Assembly: GCA_003134685.1 (NCBI GenBank)
Contig: PLCA01000003.1
Span: 631,537-695,536 of the forward strand
From: Gemmatimonadota bacterium
GTDB lineage: Bacteria; Gemmatimonadota; Gemmatimonadetes; Gemmatimonadales; Gemmatimonadaceae
DNA: 64,000 nucleotides
Direction of reading: 5' to 3'
Shown: positions 18,980 through 51,795 of the stretch, piece by piece
Numbering within the stretch: position 1 is the stretch's first letter
Layout: each line of letters starts with the position of its first letter
Program-made: the position numbers and the translations under genes
The notes under the pieces: model-generated
What the model saw: the letters and a program-made list of their open reading frames with translations, nothing else
Databases searched by the model: none
Told to the model about the DNA's origin: nothing

Positions 18980-20239
18980 ATGTTGCAGCGAATATTTGGA
19001 GTCGCTCGCGTGAAGGTCCCACCGTCGAGAGCCGGCCCATCGGGCTGGACCCTCCTGGGGGGAGCGATGCTCGCGCTGTCTGTTGCAACCATCGGTCAGG
19101 AGGCGAAGGCGCAAGCCGCCCAGTTAGTTGCCACTGCTCCTTCGCGCGCCGATTCCGGCAAGGCGCCTGCAGACAACAAAGACTCCACCGCCAAGGCTGC
19201 CGCGGCACTTCCCAAATGGTTCGACGACCTCGCGGTCAACGCCTTCGTCTCCAGCGCCTACGAGTACAACGGCAACCGTCCCACGAACGGCGCGAGCAGC
19301 TACCGCGTCTTCGACTTCAACGACAACTCCTTCAACCTCGACGTCGCCGAGCTGGTGGTGCAGATCGCGGCCTCCAAGCCGAACGACGCCGGCTTTCGCG
19401 TTGATTTTGACGCGGGCAACTCGATCCCGCAAATCACGAAGACACAGGACCAGACCGCCGCGCAGTTCGACCTGAAGCAGGCGTTCGCGAGCTATATCGC
19501 GCCACTCGGTTCCGGCCTGCGCTTCGATGTTGGGAAGTTCGTCACGCACCTGGGCTACGAGGTAATCGAGGGATACGACGGCTACAACGACAACTACAGC
19601 CGGTCGATCCTCTTCGGCTACGCCATTCCATTCACGCACACGGGAGTCAAGGCGAGCTACGCCTTCTCGAGCAAGGTCGCCGGGATGGTCGAGGTGGTGA
19701 ATGGGTGGGACCTCCTGCGCGACAATAACCGCTCGAAGTCTGTCGGAGCCCAGCTCACCCTGACACCGGTCGCGCCGCTCCAAGTGCTGCTTAACTGGAT
19801 CGGGGGGCCGGAGCTCGCGAACAACAACCACTCGAACCGCAACGTGTTCGACCTGGTGGCCATCTTCAAGCCAACCAGCACGCTGACGCTCGGCGCGAAC
19901 GGCGACTACGGGAAGGAGAACGGCACGAGCCTTGTGAATCCCGGATCCGACGCGACGTGGAAGGGCATCGCCGGCTACGCCACGCTCGCGCTGACGAACA
20001 AGTTCTCCGTCGCGCTACGCGGCGAGACGTTTCACGACGAGGATGGTGTGCGACTTGGAACGGGCACCAGGGCGACGCTGTCGGAAGGGACGTTCACGCC
20101 AACATTCAAGTTCACCGATCACGTCCTGCTCCGGGGAGAGGCGCGCTACGACAAGGCGAACCAACCGATCCTTACCAAGCGGGGCACGCTCGCCGACACG
20201 CAAACCACCGTCGCGGGTAACGTCATATTCGTGTACTGA
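18980..20239 (+). CDS. Outer-membrane beta-barrel porin (BBP2/OmpL-like)
   Basis: A 419-residue protein with an N-terminal signal region (hydrophobic part about residues 22-45, ending 'KAQAAQ'), an Ala/Lys-rich linker, then a barrel of alternating strands from 'VNAFVSSAYEYNGN'. 'FNLDVAELVVQIAASKPN' and 'FRVDFDAG' are typical of the putative beta-barrel porin-2 family. It ends in 'NVIFVY', an aromatic C-terminus suited to the BAM machinery. A ribosome site (AAGGAGG) lies 10 nt before the ATG. Position after amt suggests a role in uptake of small nitrogen compounds, which is inference. Confidence 0.75.
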   Translation: MLQRIFGVARVKVPPSRAGPSGWTLLGGAMLALSVATIGQEAKAQAAQLVATAPSRADSGKAPADNKDSTAKAAAALPKWFDDLAVNAFVSSAYEYNGNRPTNGASSYRVFDFNDNSFNLDVAELVVQIAASKPNDAGFRVDFDAGNSIPQITKTQDQTAAQFDLKQAFASYIAPLGSGLRFDVGKFVTHLGYEVIEGYDGYNDNYSRSILFGYAIPFTHTGVKASYAFSSKVAGMVEVVNGWDLLRDNNRSKSVGAQLTLTPVAPLQVLLNWIGGPELANNNHSNRNVFDLVAIFKPTSTLTLGANGDYGKENGTSLVNPGSDATWKGIAGYATLALTNKFSVALRGETFHDEDGVRLGTGTRATLSEGTFTPTFKFTDHVLLRGEARYDKANQPILTKRGTLADTQTTVAGNVIFVY

Positions 20240-20245
20240 CAACTC

Positions 20246-20611
20246 AACTGAATGGGATCCGAGATCTTAACTGCAACTGAACGGGATCCGAGATCTTAAC
20301 TGCAAACTGAACGGGATCCGAGATCTGACAACTGCAAACTGAACGGGATCCGAGATCTGAGAGGCATAGATCTCAGGGGCTAGTCACCGCGCTCCGACCG
20401 TATCCGGCGCGTATCCTGGTACAACCGACCGCCTCTACCAATACGCCACTGAGATACGTCGAAAGCGCAGTTACTAAACTCTGGTATCTGCGCTTCTCAG
20501 ATCTCGGATCCCGTTCAGTTTATGTCATTGACGGAAGCACGAACGTCTGCAGTTTCCAGATCTCGGCTCCCGTTCAGTTTGCAGTTTCCAGATCTCGGAT
20601 CCCGTTCAGTT
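20246..20611. repeat. Array of 22-bp repeats in direct and inverted orientation
   Basis: The core GAACGGGATCCGAGATCT (preceded by AACT or similar) occurs four times on the plus strand at 20246-20267, 20275-20296, 20305-20326 and 20337-20358, with 29-32 bp periodicity, and three times inverted at 20499-20520, 20558-20579 and 20590-20611. Individual copies differ by one base. The two groups enclose about 140 bp without a gene. It fills the space between the convergent porin and leuB genes and could form a large cruciform or a bidirectional terminator-like structure. A related copy is inside gltB. Confidence 0.85.
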
Positions 20612-20629
20612 TTCAGTTCTGTTACTTCA

Positions 20630-46790: not shown

Positions 46791-46920
46791 CGCGTAACCA
46801 TCCGTATCATTTGGAATCCACTGGTCGCCACGTCCGGATTTCCGTACGTTGGGCACTATCAGAGAGACTGCTGCCGGTCTCTTCGTGATCAGCTGCCTAA
46901 CTCATTCTGGGGATTCCTCT

Positions 46921-49900
46921 ATGAAGTGGCGCGCTCTCTCACGATCACCGCGAACCCGTCTTCTCCTCGCGGCCCTTTTCTTCGCTCCAGCTCTCCTTCA
47001 CGCACAGGCTCAGGCCACGACCGGCGTCGTACGAGGCGTTGCCACCGACTCGAGCGGCAAGCCCGTCCCCGCCTTTGTCACGGTCCGAAATACCGAGACG
47101 AATTTCACGCGCACTGTAAAAGCCAGCGACGCCGGCGTGTTCGTGACAACACTGCTCCCGCTCGGCAACTACATCGTGTCGGCGAGAGCCGTCGGCTACT
47201 CTCCCGTCACGAAGTCGAACATCGCCGTCACGCTCGGCCAGACGATTGATCTCCCGCTCGTCCTGGCGCGAACCGCGACGCAGCTCGCGGGCGTCACCGT
47301 CGTCGCCCAGGTCCCGACAGTCGATGCCACGCTCTCGGCAGAAGCGACGCGCCTACCGGCCGAGGTCGTGAGCGCCCTCCCGAACAACGGGCGCAACTAC
47401 CTCAACCTCGCGCTTCTCACGCCGAACGTTGCGATCACGCAGGGCCCGGACGGTGACGTTCTCAGTGTCGGCGGACAGCGCGGCATTCATAACAACGTCT
47501 CGGTGGACGGGGCCGACTTCAACAATCCATTCTTCGGCGAGCAGCGCGGAGGCCAGCGGCCACCGTTCACCTTCAATCTCGATGCGGTGCGCGAGATGGT
47601 GGTCGTCGCACAAGGGGCGAACGCAGAGTTCGGAAGATCGAGCGGCGGATTCGTCAACGTCATAACGAAGAGCGGCACCAACGACATGCACGGCACGCTG
47701 CACTATTTCGGGAAGGATGGTGTGCTGTCCTCGGACGCGTCGCACGCGAACCTCACGCTCAAGCCCGATTTCCGGCAGAACCAGTTCGGCATGACGCTCG
47801 GCGGCCCGATCGTAAAGGACAAGTTCTTCTACTTCGTCGCCTATGATCAGCAGGTCTACTCGGAAGTGAAGCAGAAGACCCGCCCCTCGAGCCTGGCCCT
47901 GGATTCTCTCAAGACTTATCTCGGCACGGCGTTCGGTGGGGCGCTGGCGCAGGATTTCGGGCCCATCAGTCGCACCAACGATGCGCAGGTCGCGCTCGTC
48001 AAGCTCGATTGGCGCATCAACGACACCCACAACGCCTCGCTCAAGTACAACTACACAAATTCGAAACAGGACAACGGCACCTTCGACGTCGACACGTGGG
48101 GGGCCAGCTCCAACGCGACCGAGAAGGATTTCTCGAATGCGGTAAACGGCAGCCTCGTATCGCACCTGACCAACACCATCGACAACGAGTTCCGGTTCCA
48201 GTTCGCGCGCGAGGACAGGCCGCGCTCCTACACGGGGCCGCAGATACCGGGACAGGGCCGGCCGTTCTCCGACACGGGGATGGACTTCGCGTCCGGCTTC
48301 CGCATCGGCGAGCCGTTCTTCATTCCGGTGAAATCGTACGACACCCGCGTGCAGGCGCTCGACAACGTCTCGTGGGTGCGGGGAAACCACATCTACAAGA
48401 CCGGCTTCGAGTACAACCGGACGGCCGAGCACCAGACATTCATCGGGTTCGGGAACGGGCGATTCATCTTCAACTCCGTGACGAGCTTCGAGAACTACGT
48501 GCAATTCGGAAACAACTATGTGGAGTGCAGCAACGCGGCGGGCGTACAGGTGAGCACTTCGCTGACGGGCGCTTGCCCGGCGAACACTACGATCTCCGGG
48601 CCTGTGCAGCTCTATCTGCAGCAGGCAGGCGTGAATGGCCTGTCGCTTGAGGCTTCGGGGACACAGGTGATTCCGCAGCAGGATTTCGCGGTGTTCATTC
48701 AGGACAACTGGAAGGCGACGCCGAACGTCACCGTGAATTACGGCGTCAGGTGGGAGGGACAGAAGGAGCCCGATCCGATCACCCCGCCGTCGGCGGTTTT
48801 CTTCAGCGGTTTCATCGGACAGTCGGTGACGAATGCGAATGGCACGTTCGCGTTCCCGTCGAACGGGAAGATTCCGTCCGACTACAAGATGTTCCAGCCT
48901 CGACTGGGAATCGCGTGGGATGCAAAGGGCGACGGAAAGCATGTCGTGCGCGCGGCGGCGGGACTCTACTACGCGCGCATTCCCGGACTCAACCTGGCCA
49001 GCGCGCGCAGCACCAACGGGTCAATCGGGCAGACGATCTTCCGGAACAGCGCGCTCACGGGAGTGCTCGGTCCCCCGCCACCTTACAACTCACTGCTACC
49101 GGCACCCGCGGGTGCTCCGTTCCGACCGGACATCTTCGTCTTCGACCAGAATTTCAAGAATCCACGGACGATGAGCGCTTCAATCGGCTACGATACGGAG
49201 ATACTCAATTCACTCGCGGCGTCGGTGTCGTACACCTACGCGGCGACCGACAATCTCACGCGCTTCGTCAATCGCAACGACGCAGCGTTCGGCTCGCCGT
49301 GGACCAGCGGACTCAACGGCACCGCTAACGGCGTCGGCGTTCTCACTACGGTCGAGAGCTCTGCCAAGTCGCGCTACCAGGGTGTGACGTTCAGCCTTGG
49401 GCGTCTGGCCGATCCGAATTTCCAGTACCAGGCGAACTATACGCTCGCGGTCGACAAGGCTGACGACGACAACGAGCGCGATCCATTCAGCTTCCGTTAC
49501 GCCAACGCCGCCCAGCTCGATCGCGAGTACAACTACAGCGACCGCGACCAGCGTCATCGTCTCAACCTGTGGGCGCTGTACCATTTCCCGTTCGACATCC
49601 ACGGCAACACCCGCTTCTCCTGGTACTCGGCCCAGCCGACGTCCGAGAAGTGCATCAACAACGCGCCGAGTGGACAGCGCGCGACGGCGCCGACGGATAG
49701 AATCTGCGCGAACGGGACAATCCTGCTCCGGAACACGATTCGCCGCGACAACGCTTTTGCGAGCTGGGACATCCGGTTGTCGAAGCCATTCCGCGTGAGA
49801 GGGCATGGGCAGCTCGAGGCACTGGTCGAGGTGTTCAACGTTTTGAATCGTGACAACTTCCGTGATCCGTCCTCGGCTTCGCTGCTCTTCAATTTTGATG

Positions 49901-49965
49901 GTACGATCCGGAATGGGCTCGGGGATCCGAGACAGATCCAGGTTGGGGTGAGATACGGCTTTTGA
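46921..49965 (+). CDS. TonB-dependent receptor with carboxypeptidase-regulatory domain (Oar-like)
   Basis: Outer-membrane protein of 1014 residues from ATG 46921 with a signal peptide (LLLAALFFAPALLHAQAQ). Residues ~35-120 form a CarboxypepD_reg domain ('GVVRGVATDSSGKPVPAFVT'), followed by the plug ('GQRGIHNNVSVDGADFNNPF', 'GRSSGGFVNVITKSGTNDMH') and a large barrel ending 'QIQVGVRYGF' with the terminal Phe. Oar-like receptors import large substrates or export factors using TonB energy. The ligand is unknown. Confidence 0.92.
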   Translation: MKWRALSRSPRTRLLLAALFFAPALLHAQAQATTGVVRGVATDSSGKPVPAFVTVRNTETNFTRTVKASDAGVFVTTLLPLGNYIVSARAVGYSPVTKSNIAVTLGQTIDLPLVLARTATQLAGVTVVAQVPTVDATLSAEATRLPAEVVSALPNNGRNYLNLALLTPNVAITQGPDGDVLSVGGQRGIHNNVSVDGADFNNPFFGEQRGGQRPPFTFNLDAVREMVVVAQGANAEFGRSSGGFVNVITKSGTNDMHGTLHYFGKDGVLSSDASHANLTLKPDFRQNQFGMTLGGPIVKDKFFYFVAYDQQVYSEVKQKTRPSSLALDSLKTYLGTAFGGALAQDFGPISRTNDAQVALVKLDWRINDTHNASLKYNYTNSKQDNGTFDVDTWGASSNATEKDFSNAVNGSLVSHLTNTIDNEFRFQFAREDRPRSYTGPQIPGQGRPFSDTGMDFASGFRIGEPFFIPVKSYDTRVQALDNVSWVRGNHIYKTGFEYNRTAEHQTFIGFGNGRFIFNSVTSFENYVQFGNNYVECSNAAGVQVSTSLTGACPANTTISGPVQLYLQQAGVNGLSLEASGTQVIPQQDFAVFIQDNWKATPNVTVNYGVRWEGQKEPDPITPPSAVFFSGFIGQSVTNANGTFAFPSNGKIPSDYKMFQPRLGIAWDAKGDGKHVVRAAAGLYYARIPGLNLASARSTNGSIGQTIFRNSALTGVLGPPPPYNSLLPAPAGAPFRPDIFVFDQNFKNPRTMSASIGYDTEILNSLAASVSYTYAATDNLTRFVNRNDAAFGSPWTSGLNGTANGVGVLTTVESSAKSRYQGVTFSLGRLADPNFQYQANYTLAVDKADDDNERDPFSFRYANAAQLDREYNYSDRDQRHRLNLWALYHFPFDIHGNTRFSWYSAQPTSEKCINNAPSGQRATAPTDRICANGTILLRNTIRRDNAFASWDIRLSKPFRVRGHGQLEALVEVFNVLNRDNFRDPSSASLLFNFDGTIRNGLGDPRQIQVGVRYGF

Positions 49966-49996: not shown

Positions 49997-50095
49997 CGAA
50001 CGGGACGAGCTTGCTCGTCCCGTTCGTGTCGAGAATACCGAGGCAGGGGGCTGGAGGCTTTACGGCTGTTTCGGCTTGGAGCTTTCATACTGGCG
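49997..50095 (+). repeat. Palindrome-bearing repeat, solitary copy
   Basis: Starts with a near-perfect hairpin (14-bp arms CGAACGGGACGAGC ... GCTCGTCCCGTTCG, loop TT), then GTCGAGAATACCGA, a GGCAGGGGGCTGGAGGCTTT-like block and CTTGGAGCTTTCATACTGGCG. It aligns along its whole length with 51041-51135. It follows the TonB receptor stop. No T-run follows the hairpin. Confidence 0.8.
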
Positions 50096-50151
50096 CTCCT
50101 CGCCGGACGTATCTTGAAGTAGCACTGCAGCAGGCTGGACCGGGAGGCAGG

Positions 50152-51027
50152 ATGATTCACACAGAAGAGGTCGCGGCACCCGACGCGGTTTCGCGCAAGC
50201 CGCGCGACGATGAGCTCGACGCCTACGGGGTTACCGATCGCGGAAAGGTCCGGGCCGAGAATCAGGATCACTTCCTCCTCGGCTCACTCCGCAAGCGCCT
50301 CGACATTCGACAGTCGAGTCTCGCACTCGACAAGATCCCGCTCGCGGAGGAGCGCGTCGCGTTCTTCATGATGGTCGCCGACGGAGTGGGCGGAGGACTG
50401 AAGGGCGAGCAGGCGAGCAGGATGGCTCTCGAGGTGGCGACCCGGTACATCGCCGAGGGTGCTCGTTGTTATTATCGGTTCGACGAGGAAGGTGTCGATC
50501 TCGGCCACTCGCTGGAGGAAGGAGCGAAGAGGTGCCACGACGCGCTTCAGGAGCGCGCCGCATCCGACCCGGAAGCGGCTGGAATGGCGACCACGCTCAC
50601 ATTATTCATCGGTGTTTGGCCGTGGGTCTACCTCCTTCAGGTCGGAGACTCCCGCTACTACCAGTACCGCGATGGCGCGCTGATTCAGATTTCGCGGGAC
50701 CAGACCGTCGCGCAGGAGCTGGCTGATCAGGGAATCATGCCGAGAGAGCTCGTGGAGAAGTCACCGTTGGCGAACGTTCTCTCCAGCTCGATCGGGGGAC
50801 AGCAGACGGCGCCCGTCGTCACCCGGATTCCGAATTCCTGGGGAACGATCCACCTCCTTTGCAGCGACGGGCTCACTCGGCACGTCGCGGACGAGAGAAT
50901 CGCGGAGCGACTGGGCGGGATGCGGTCAGCGCGGCAGGTTGCCGAGGAGCTTGTTCAGGATGCTCTGGACGCTGGCGGAACTGACAACATCACCGTGATC
51001 GTCGGGCGAGCGATCCCTAAAGATTGA
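50152..51027 (+). CDS. PP2C-type Ser/Thr protein phosphatase
   Basis: A 291-residue soluble PPM phosphatase. The ATG at 50152 follows GGGAGGCAGG. Motifs: 'TDRGKVRAENQDHFLL', the metal site 'FFMMVADGVGGGLKGEQAS', 'ATTLTLFIG', 'LLQVGDSRYYQYRDG', 'LLCSDGLTRHV' and 'AGGTDNITVIVGR'. It could reverse phosphorylation by the kinases in this window, which is inference. The frame upstream of the ATG reads through a repeat and is not used. Confidence 0.9.
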   Translation: MIHTEEVAAPDAVSRKPRDDELDAYGVTDRGKVRAENQDHFLLGSLRKRLDIRQSSLALDKIPLAEERVAFFMMVADGVGGGLKGEQASRMALEVATRYIAEGARCYYRFDEEGVDLGHSLEEGAKRCHDALQERAASDPEAAGMATTLTLFIGVWPWVYLLQVGDSRYYQYRDGALIQISRDQTVAQELADQGIMPRELVEKSPLANVLSSSIGGQQTAPVVTRIPNSWGTIHLLCSDGLTRHVADERIAERLGGMRSARQVAEELVQDALDAGGTDNITVIVGRAIPKD

Positions 51028-51512
51028 GTGTAGTTCCCGCGAACGGACGAGCGTAGCTCGTCCGTTCTGGTCGAGAATACCGAAGCAGGGAGCTGAAAGC
51101 TTTGCAGCCTTTCGCTGGGAGCTTTCATACCGGCGGTCTGAGGCTGCGCGGCGGCGAGATGTCCACGAAGTTTGTTCAGTAGGCCGTGGAGCATCTTTCT
51201 CACCTCGATGCATTCTCTCAGAAGAGATTCGGAATCACTTTGGGGTATTGCCCCGATGTCGCCGGCCATGATCAGGTGATACTCCAGCTCACAGCCGGAG
51301 TTGAGAGCGATACGCAGGAACCGCGCGAATTCCTTCTCGCTCTCCTGACGTCTACCCTCGACGATATTTGCCGGGATCGACATCGCAGCCCGAATTATCT
51401 GTCCGCGCAATGATTGATCTTGCGACCGGCGCATTCCTGTCGCGACGCGGTAGGAATGAAGCGCGAGAGCGTGCGCCTTCACCCAAACGTGCAATTTCTT
51501 GAAATCGCTCAC
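50955..51512 (-). CDS. Four-helix-bundle (23S rRNA-IVP type) protein
   Basis: Starts at GTG 51512 with SDFKKLHVWVKAHALALHSY, the typical opening of the four-helix-bundle family PF05635/TIGR02436; 'IIRAAMSIPANIVEGRRQES' and 'RFLRIALNSGCELEYHLIMA' confirm it. The family includes proteins of 23S rRNA intervening sequences and is related to the Avd accessory protein of diversity-generating retroelements, but no reverse transcriptase is near. The domain ends around residue 118; the remaining ~67 residues, including 'SERLQSFQLPASVFSTRTDE', are encoded by the flanking repeat and the antisense of the PP2C gene, so the C-terminus may be an insertion artefact. Confidence 0.85.
   Translation of the reverse strand: MSDFKKLHVWVKAHALALHSYRVATGMRRSQDQSLRGQIIRAAMSIPANIVEGRRQESEKEFARFLRIALNSGCELEYHLIMAGDIGAIPQSDSESLLRECIEVRKMLHGLLNKLRGHLAAAQPQTAGMKAPSERLQSFQLPASVFSTRTDELRSSVRGNYTQSLGIARPTITVMLSVPPASRAS
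51041..51135 (+). repeat. Palindrome-bearing repeat, left copy of the four-helix unit
   Basis: Hairpin with 12-bp arms (GAACGGACGAGC ... GCTCGTCCGTTC, loop GTA), then TCGAGAATACCGAAGCAGGG, GAGCTGAAAGCTTTGCAGC and GGGAGCTTTCATACCGGCG. Same order as at 49997-50095. It overlaps the 3' part of the four-helix-bundle gene. Confidence 0.8.
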
Positions 51513-51612
51513 ACGCCAAAGTGCGGCGGAAAGCTTCAGTGACCCGCACCGTTTCATTGCGACGGTCGTCTGTTCACTTTCACTCCACCGCGAATCCTTT
51601 GTGCCTACTGGA

Positions 51613-51676
51613 ATGCCACCGGAAGAGCTCCAAGCCGAGCGGCTGCAAAGCTTTCAGCTCCCTGCTTCTGTTCTGT
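51613..51676 (-). repeat. Repeat copy, right end of the four-helix unit (inverted, no hairpin)
   Basis: Read on the minus strand: CAGAAGCAGGGAGCTGAAAG, CTTTGCAGCCGCTCGGCTTG and GAGCTCTTCCGGTGG, matching the inner part of the copies at 49997 and 51041. The palindromic start is absent or diverged here. Confidence 0.75.
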
Positions 51677-51795
51677 GGACGCCTCCATGCGCGCATAACC
51701 TTCCCCGACCACAGTCTGGCTTGTGGTGCATGTTAAAGGTCCTGAATTGCCACAACGTGTTCCCGCGAAACGAGACAATTAAAAAAAAGAGATCC

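Follow-up and report, generated by a model that had tools for sequence, protein, structure and literature searches.

PF05635 four-helix-bundle genes between inverted heptamer arrays suggest an overlooked family of very small mobile-element-like units in bacteria

The stretch of DNA analysed here, referred to as the window, comprises 64,000 nucleotides from the genome of a soil bacterium of the Gemmatimonadota (contig PLCA01000003.1). A minus-strand gene at 50955-51512 matches the profiles of the four-helix-bundle family PF05635/TIGR02436, with E 4.5e-30 and 104.5 bits for Pfam PF05635 (curated cut-off 33.8) and E 6.2e-31 and 106.8 bits for TIGR02436 (curated cut-off 24). Its likely start codon is the GTG at 51512 (homologues start with M/V-SDFKKL; an alternative ATG lies at 51557), and the PF05635 domain covers 51183-51497. 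The gene is accompanied by two opposed copies of a repeat, a left arm at 51070-51126 on the plus strand (copy 2; a degenerate 7-nt periodic array, AGGGAGCTGAAAGCTTTGCAGC...) and a right arm at 51622-51680 on the minus strand (copy 3). Both arms measure 45-50 nt, are 84-88% complementary and are spaced by about 500 nt. The unit proper, 51070-51680, consists of left arm, minus-strand gene and right arm and encloses no other gene, in agreement with the preliminary description of this locus. It is flanked by a PP2C-type Ser/Thr phosphatase gene (50152-51027, plus strand, identified by profile search), which lies outside the unit, and by another protein gene. As had also been noticed, the repeat encodes the tail of the protein: the open reading frame continues through the left arm to a stop codon at 50955, and half of the related units (34 of 68) have their stop codon inside the right arm. 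Since its IR score of 66 exceeds about 99.5% of 2000 random placements in the window, the inverted repeat goes beyond chance; the window's highest scores belong to this unit and to another element of its class at 20246-20618.

A third repeat copy with a hairpin stands alone at 49997-50110 (plus strand), between a TonB-dependent receptor gene (46849-49965) and the PP2C gene. A G+C-rich hairpin at 51036-51068 (plus strand) adjoins the left arm directly past the PP2C gene and is common to both plus-strand copies (49997-50110 and 51036-51140), each of which is found just past a plus-strand gene, that for TonB or PP2C; in these points, too, the first reading of the locus was accurate. This hairpin is absent from other copies of the window repeat, and elsewhere in the 864 kb (of 3.63 Mb) used for copy counts in the own genome it was found only at 50000, plus one chance-like match. 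The two G+C-rich hairpins are not general components of the repeat family. The repeats had, furthermore, been described as palindrome-bearing. Within the window arm, AGC recurs roughly every 7 nt, and because the arm is such a degenerate heptamer array, its palindrome is largely a by-product of the 7-nt repetition. A long RNA stem is predicted (z -14.6); an Rfam search of the window gave no match to a known RNA family. A clean empty site for the unit was sought in a relative, the MAG G117, where the junction boundaries turned out to be unclean. In this MAG (loci L151, 2380-2448, and L135), one contig carries the window unit, and at the apparently empty end of another the PP2C gene is immediately followed by the next gene, which suggests strain polymorphism for the unit; the G117 gap corresponding to the solo copy at 49997-50110 is shorter and without the copy.

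According to its AlphaFold model, the window protein is a four-helix bundle (pLDDT 93.7) matching 2GSC (Xcc0516), 2RLD (BT_0352) and, more distantly, Avd (4DWL). The solved PF05635 relatives are pentamers, and Xcc0516 is encoded by Xanthomonas. The family is widespread, with two solved structures, and no function is known for it. Residues W18, Q46, R49, S53, N57, I58, E60, G61, S80 and E83 are the same in all 26 sequences compared from different phyla and may be regarded as a candidate recognition or active site. At one locus (L076, 1504-1848), the antisense strand of the PF05635 gene also matches the profile, with 65 bits.

The arrangement found in the window is by no means an isolated case. 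In the genome (3.63 Mb), an inverted repeat about 45-80 nt long and of 80-90% identity closely surrounds the ORF of each of the seven PF05635 genes, one of which is frameshifted; the genome-wide search for such genes between inverted copies, suggested at the outset, thus supported the enclosed unit. Among the Gemmatimonadaceae, PF05635 is present in 95 of 118 genomes with up to 14 matches per genome. An IR score of at least 30 was obtained for 74 of 79 PF05635 matches of this family, two of the five exceptions being cut by contig ends; this set includes a few loci fetched twice and one frameshifted gene giving two matches, so that independent genes are slightly fewer. Gemmatimonadaceae units have a median length of 590 bp (IQR 562-619). 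In a cross-phylum set, which includes Bacteroidota, Pseudomonadota, Bacillota, Cyanobacteriota, Planctomycetota, Chloroflexota, Acidobacteriota and others, inverted repeats surround 60 of 80 PF05635 genes versus 5 of 428 control placements displaced within these loci, a clear inverted repeat being absent at about a quarter of the loci. The one strong control hit (Chloroploca, L227) turned out to be a cluster of the AGGTGTC heptamers that the unit of this locus also has. Moreover, 33 of 38 PF05635 genes on viral contigs and seven of eight on cyanobacterial plasmids lie within inverted repeats; phage carriage was rejected, as annotated phages gave no match to the one PF05635 protein used as query. 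Units of this kind, with a PF05635 gene inside inverted repeats, recur in many phyla at sites unrelated to each other.

Individual loci display further peculiarities. A planctomycete unit (L240, 2218-3111) has very long arms of about 247 nt with GGACGGT-type heptamers. On plasmid pANA02 of Anabaena sp. 90, a type I-D CRISPR locus has a unit (L469, 1268-1959) inserted between its cas6 and cas4 genes. Genomes of Wenyingzhuangia and Flavobacterium (G131, G133) contain 9-12 PF05635 matches, several of which are broken by stops, suggesting copy turnover.

Inspection of the arms reveals tandem heptamers and occasionally octamers. Quantitatively, 43 of 52 arms are inverted tandem arrays with a period of 7-8 nt as compared to 1 of 145 controls, the best period being 7 in 42 and 8 in nine of the 52 arms. 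Mean autocorrelation amounts to 0.68 at shift 7 and 0.64 at shift 14 (controls 0.26), with a weaker periodic signal in the arms of Gemmatimonadaceae (0.55 vs 0.27 in controls). Heptamer-array arms occur at plasmid loci of Calothrix, Nostoc, Anabaena and Trichormus, and the cyanobacterial plasmid units make use of AGGGTGT, AGGGAGT, AACAGGG and CAGAAGT arrays. The arm sequence is wholly different between units of one genome as well as between species, while the period of 7 and the gene stay constant. Additional arrays of a locus's own type were found nearby at 9 of 52 loci, compared to 10 of 312 with swapped types. In Candidatus Chloroploca (L227, 3957-4594), a large gene that has a methyltransferase-like GNPPW motif harbours dense AGGTGTC arrays, apparently in frame; a PF05635 unit built on this heptamer lies about 1 kb away.

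Arms of the same types are also dispersed as elements without any ORF. Genome-wide BLAST with one window arm gave about 28 matches, several of them inverted pairs about 40-125 nt apart. For the arms of units L001 and L005, eight and six ORF-less inverted pairs, respectively, were counted in the 864 kb, mostly about 170-190 bp each and with a shared core; a random 66-mer control yielded about 1.2 hits in the same 864 kb, i.e. essentially only itself. One member of the L005 family is present in the window at 20239-20618 (no strand assigned; core 20341-20516), accompanied by tandem solo copies of 29-32 nt. The stem is kept within the ORF-less family, but double changes occur in just 4 of 41 pairs and the arms of a given copy did not show compensatory coupling; a covarying structured RNA was rejected for this family on these grounds. 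In the incomplete MAG G037, PF05635 gave no hits, yet many arm copies are retained.

Empty and occupied sites could be compared best in the genus Brucella (with Ochrobactrum), where the unit of Brucella tritici was followed across 35 genomes. The PF05635 gene is present in 13 of these, single-copy and always at the same locus, and 20 genomes have a sharp empty site with about 14 nt between the neighbouring stop and start codons at most junctions read. In one more non-carrier (G156), short pieces of a single contig span the site, and the status of G162, whose contig breaks at the array of the site, is uncertain. No clear target duplication and no constant terminal motif were detected between empty and occupied Brucella sites, the flanks of which have diverged; likewise, neither a transposition intermediate nor a target duplication nor a recent jump was seen in the loci compared. 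One protein subtype (G142, G157, G161) is combined with arms of the GGGCAGTA type and the remaining carriers mainly with GGGGAGTA or AGGGAGTA. Hits to the octamer patterns, which overlap and thus exceed the number of separate arrays, total 30-80 in carriers and 0 (n=14), 1-4 (n=6) or 9 (n=1) in non-carriers, the reversed-pattern control giving about zero hits. This difference is significant in a Mann-Whitney test without phylogenetic correction (p 3e-7). In locus trees, the non-carriers G135, G153 and G167 are nested among carriers, which implies losses or recombination; because loss, independent gain and recombination look alike in these trees, the correlation of gene and arrays stays phylogenetically uncorrected.

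At least 12 of the 13 carriers possess an ORF-less array pair where most non-carriers have a plain terminator (L395-L411, at the site of L378 3560-3790; the terminator is convergent in non-carriers), and the arrays may take over termination at this site; carrier G142 is without the pair, and at this site the non-carriers G160 and G151 possess arrays and G154 and G166 decayed ones. A dN/dS of about 0.05 over 48 pairs, at a dS near saturation, shows purifying selection on the Brucella PF05635 protein. The gene itself seems to have been passed on vertically or exchanged in place. As it is single-copy and syntenic while the ORF-less arrays are dispersed, the protein may act for the repeats instead of mobilising itself. 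Hence, the minimal mobile unit originally proposed stands in part: the recurrent unit of about 590 bp, its sharp empty sites and its ORF-less relatives agree with it, whereas in Brucella the gene unit stays at one syntenic place and it is the ORF-less arrays that are dispersed. Repeat copies away from the gene, which the preliminary description regarded as an argument against such a unit, indeed exist, but do not refute it because these ORF-less copies track the gene.

Taken by themselves, the observed anatomy and generality of the unit, its empty versus occupied sites, the matching ORF-less families, the co-occurrence of gene and repeat and purifying selection tie a four-helix protein, which is not a known transposase, to hairpin-forming arrays; array binding and a causal role in spread would follow by analogy. 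In the reading that we consider probable, the unit represents a small module resembling mobile elements, a REP/RAYT-like system of gene plus repeat with kinship to the intervening sequences (IVS) of 23S rRNA. A four-helix PF05635 gene lies between two inverted 7-8 nt arrays able to fold into a long hairpin, and ORF-less derivatives sharing these arms make up the dispersed family. The PF05635 protein would recognise its own array or hairpin, either as DNA or as transcribed RNA stem, and this recognition might enable host enzymes to copy or maintain hairpin units in further intergenic regions, comparable to the link between RAYT proteins and REPINs.

Several known systems share parts of this arrangement. 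The RAYT gene is positioned between two inverted REPs, with repeat number tracking the gene (PMC2817692), and inverted REP pairs form REPINs (PMC3116915). Here, too, inverted repeats flank the gene, inverted pairs of the same repeat are dispersed, and in Brucella repeat number tracks the presence of a single-copy gene (phylogeny uncorrected). In contrast, the protein is an unrelated four-helix bundle, this genome is without Y1 transposase, and the arrays are 7-8 nt tandem repeats instead of REPs of 20-40 nt. The 23S rRNA IVS with S23/IVP ORFs of Leptospira and Coxiella, for which mobility was suspected earlier, belong to the same protein family, are short and have inverted termini forming a stem; the preliminary description aptly made this connection, as the Coxiella IVS has tandem heptamers adjoining the S23 ORF (PMC4990558). 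The window unit likewise holds an S23/IVP ORF within stem-forming inverted termini. Unlike IVS, however, it is not located in a 23S rRNA gene, nor was any rRNA gene found at 20 other loci; the units described here are free-standing between protein genes, have longer arms and possess ORF-less families. Heptanucleotide arrays, finally, are known as STRR of cyanobacteria, GGGAATC of Xanthomonas (70-75 inverted heptamer pairs per genome) and GGGGAYT of Nostoc, and were reported as generally unassociated with mobile elements, no link to PF05635 being drawn (PMC4692102). Like the units here, they are G-rich heptamers in intergenic position, the likeness for Xanthomonas being based on the published description, and the arms on cyanobacterial plasmids are tandem intergenic heptanucleotide arrays as in STRR. 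Viral contigs searched for GGGAATC had no PF05635 nearby.

An alternative without any mobility would be autoregulation, with PF05635 as a host nucleic-acid-binding protein acting in transcript stability, termination or the nucleoid, the arrays as its operators or terminators and the dispersed arrays as slippage-expanded regulon sites. The single-copy, syntenic Brucella gene under purifying selection and the intergenic position of the arrays, at one site in place of the terminator hairpin of non-carriers, would fit this. Against it, one genome holds seven units at unrelated sites and relatives have up to 14 matches, there are broken copies and sharp empty sites, and ORF-less units share arms and core sequence, i.e. 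more than repeats; altogether, this makes autoregulation unlikely. The layout of inverted repeat, ORF and inverted repeat and the ORF-less pairs of about 180 bp also resemble MITEs, which a DDE transposase might move in trans with PF05635 as cargo. Yet arms differ wholly between units and species while period 7 and gene are kept, the Brucella site showed neither a constant terminal motif nor a clear target duplication, and a cargo gene is not expected in so many phyla, rendering such a conventional transposon passenger very improbable.

As for the enzyme in trans on which the unit was initially thought to depend, the candidates considered fell away. The transposase search, covering the Y1 (HUH) family, found no PF01797 in the genome, and a Y1 partner was rejected. 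Reverse transcriptase would be the partner of an RNA-level element, by analogy to Avd and the reverse transcriptase of diversity-generating retroelements (DGR). In its favour are the match in fold to Avd and the DGR RNP (4DWL, 8UB7; TM about 0.73-0.75), the long RNA stem and the excision of IVS RNA by RNase III in Coxiella (PMC4990558). Sequence identity to Avd is, however, just 12-13%, and this genome contains neither RVT_1 nor a DGR partner. RVT_1 occurs in just 17 of 118 Gemmatimonadaceae genomes and is absent from most of the PF05635-rich ones, among them G000, G006, G016 and G019; reverse transcriptase was thus rejected as a general need in trans, and an element of this kind appears highly improbable.

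Returning to the module of gene and repeat, a broader and more tentative proposal is that PF05635 proteins could be the trans-acting factors of pan-bacterial hairpin elements made of inverted 7-8 nt arrays. This would unite cyanobacterial and Xanthomonas heptamers with 23S rRNA IVS, spreading without a recognised transposase or reverse transcriptase. Earlier literature describes S23 ORFs in IVS, IVP genes at cas loci and within rRNA insertions of CPR, as well as heptamer arrays; no description of free-standing PF05635 genes within inverted heptamer arrays was found in the open-access literature, a scope that makes this weak evidence of novelty.

Heptamer arrays such as STRR and GGGAATC have been catalogued since about 1990, to our knowledge with no origin given. 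The tie between PF05635 and arrays now provides both the protein and the heptamer arrays with a testable role, and the unit between cas6 and cas4 in Anabaena sp. 90 could explain IVP genes in cas loci. Overall, the PF05635 units with their arrays suggest that a family of very small mobile-element-like units has been overlooked. If the protein truly spreads the arrays, bacteria would possess two unrelated solutions of the RAYT/REPIN type.
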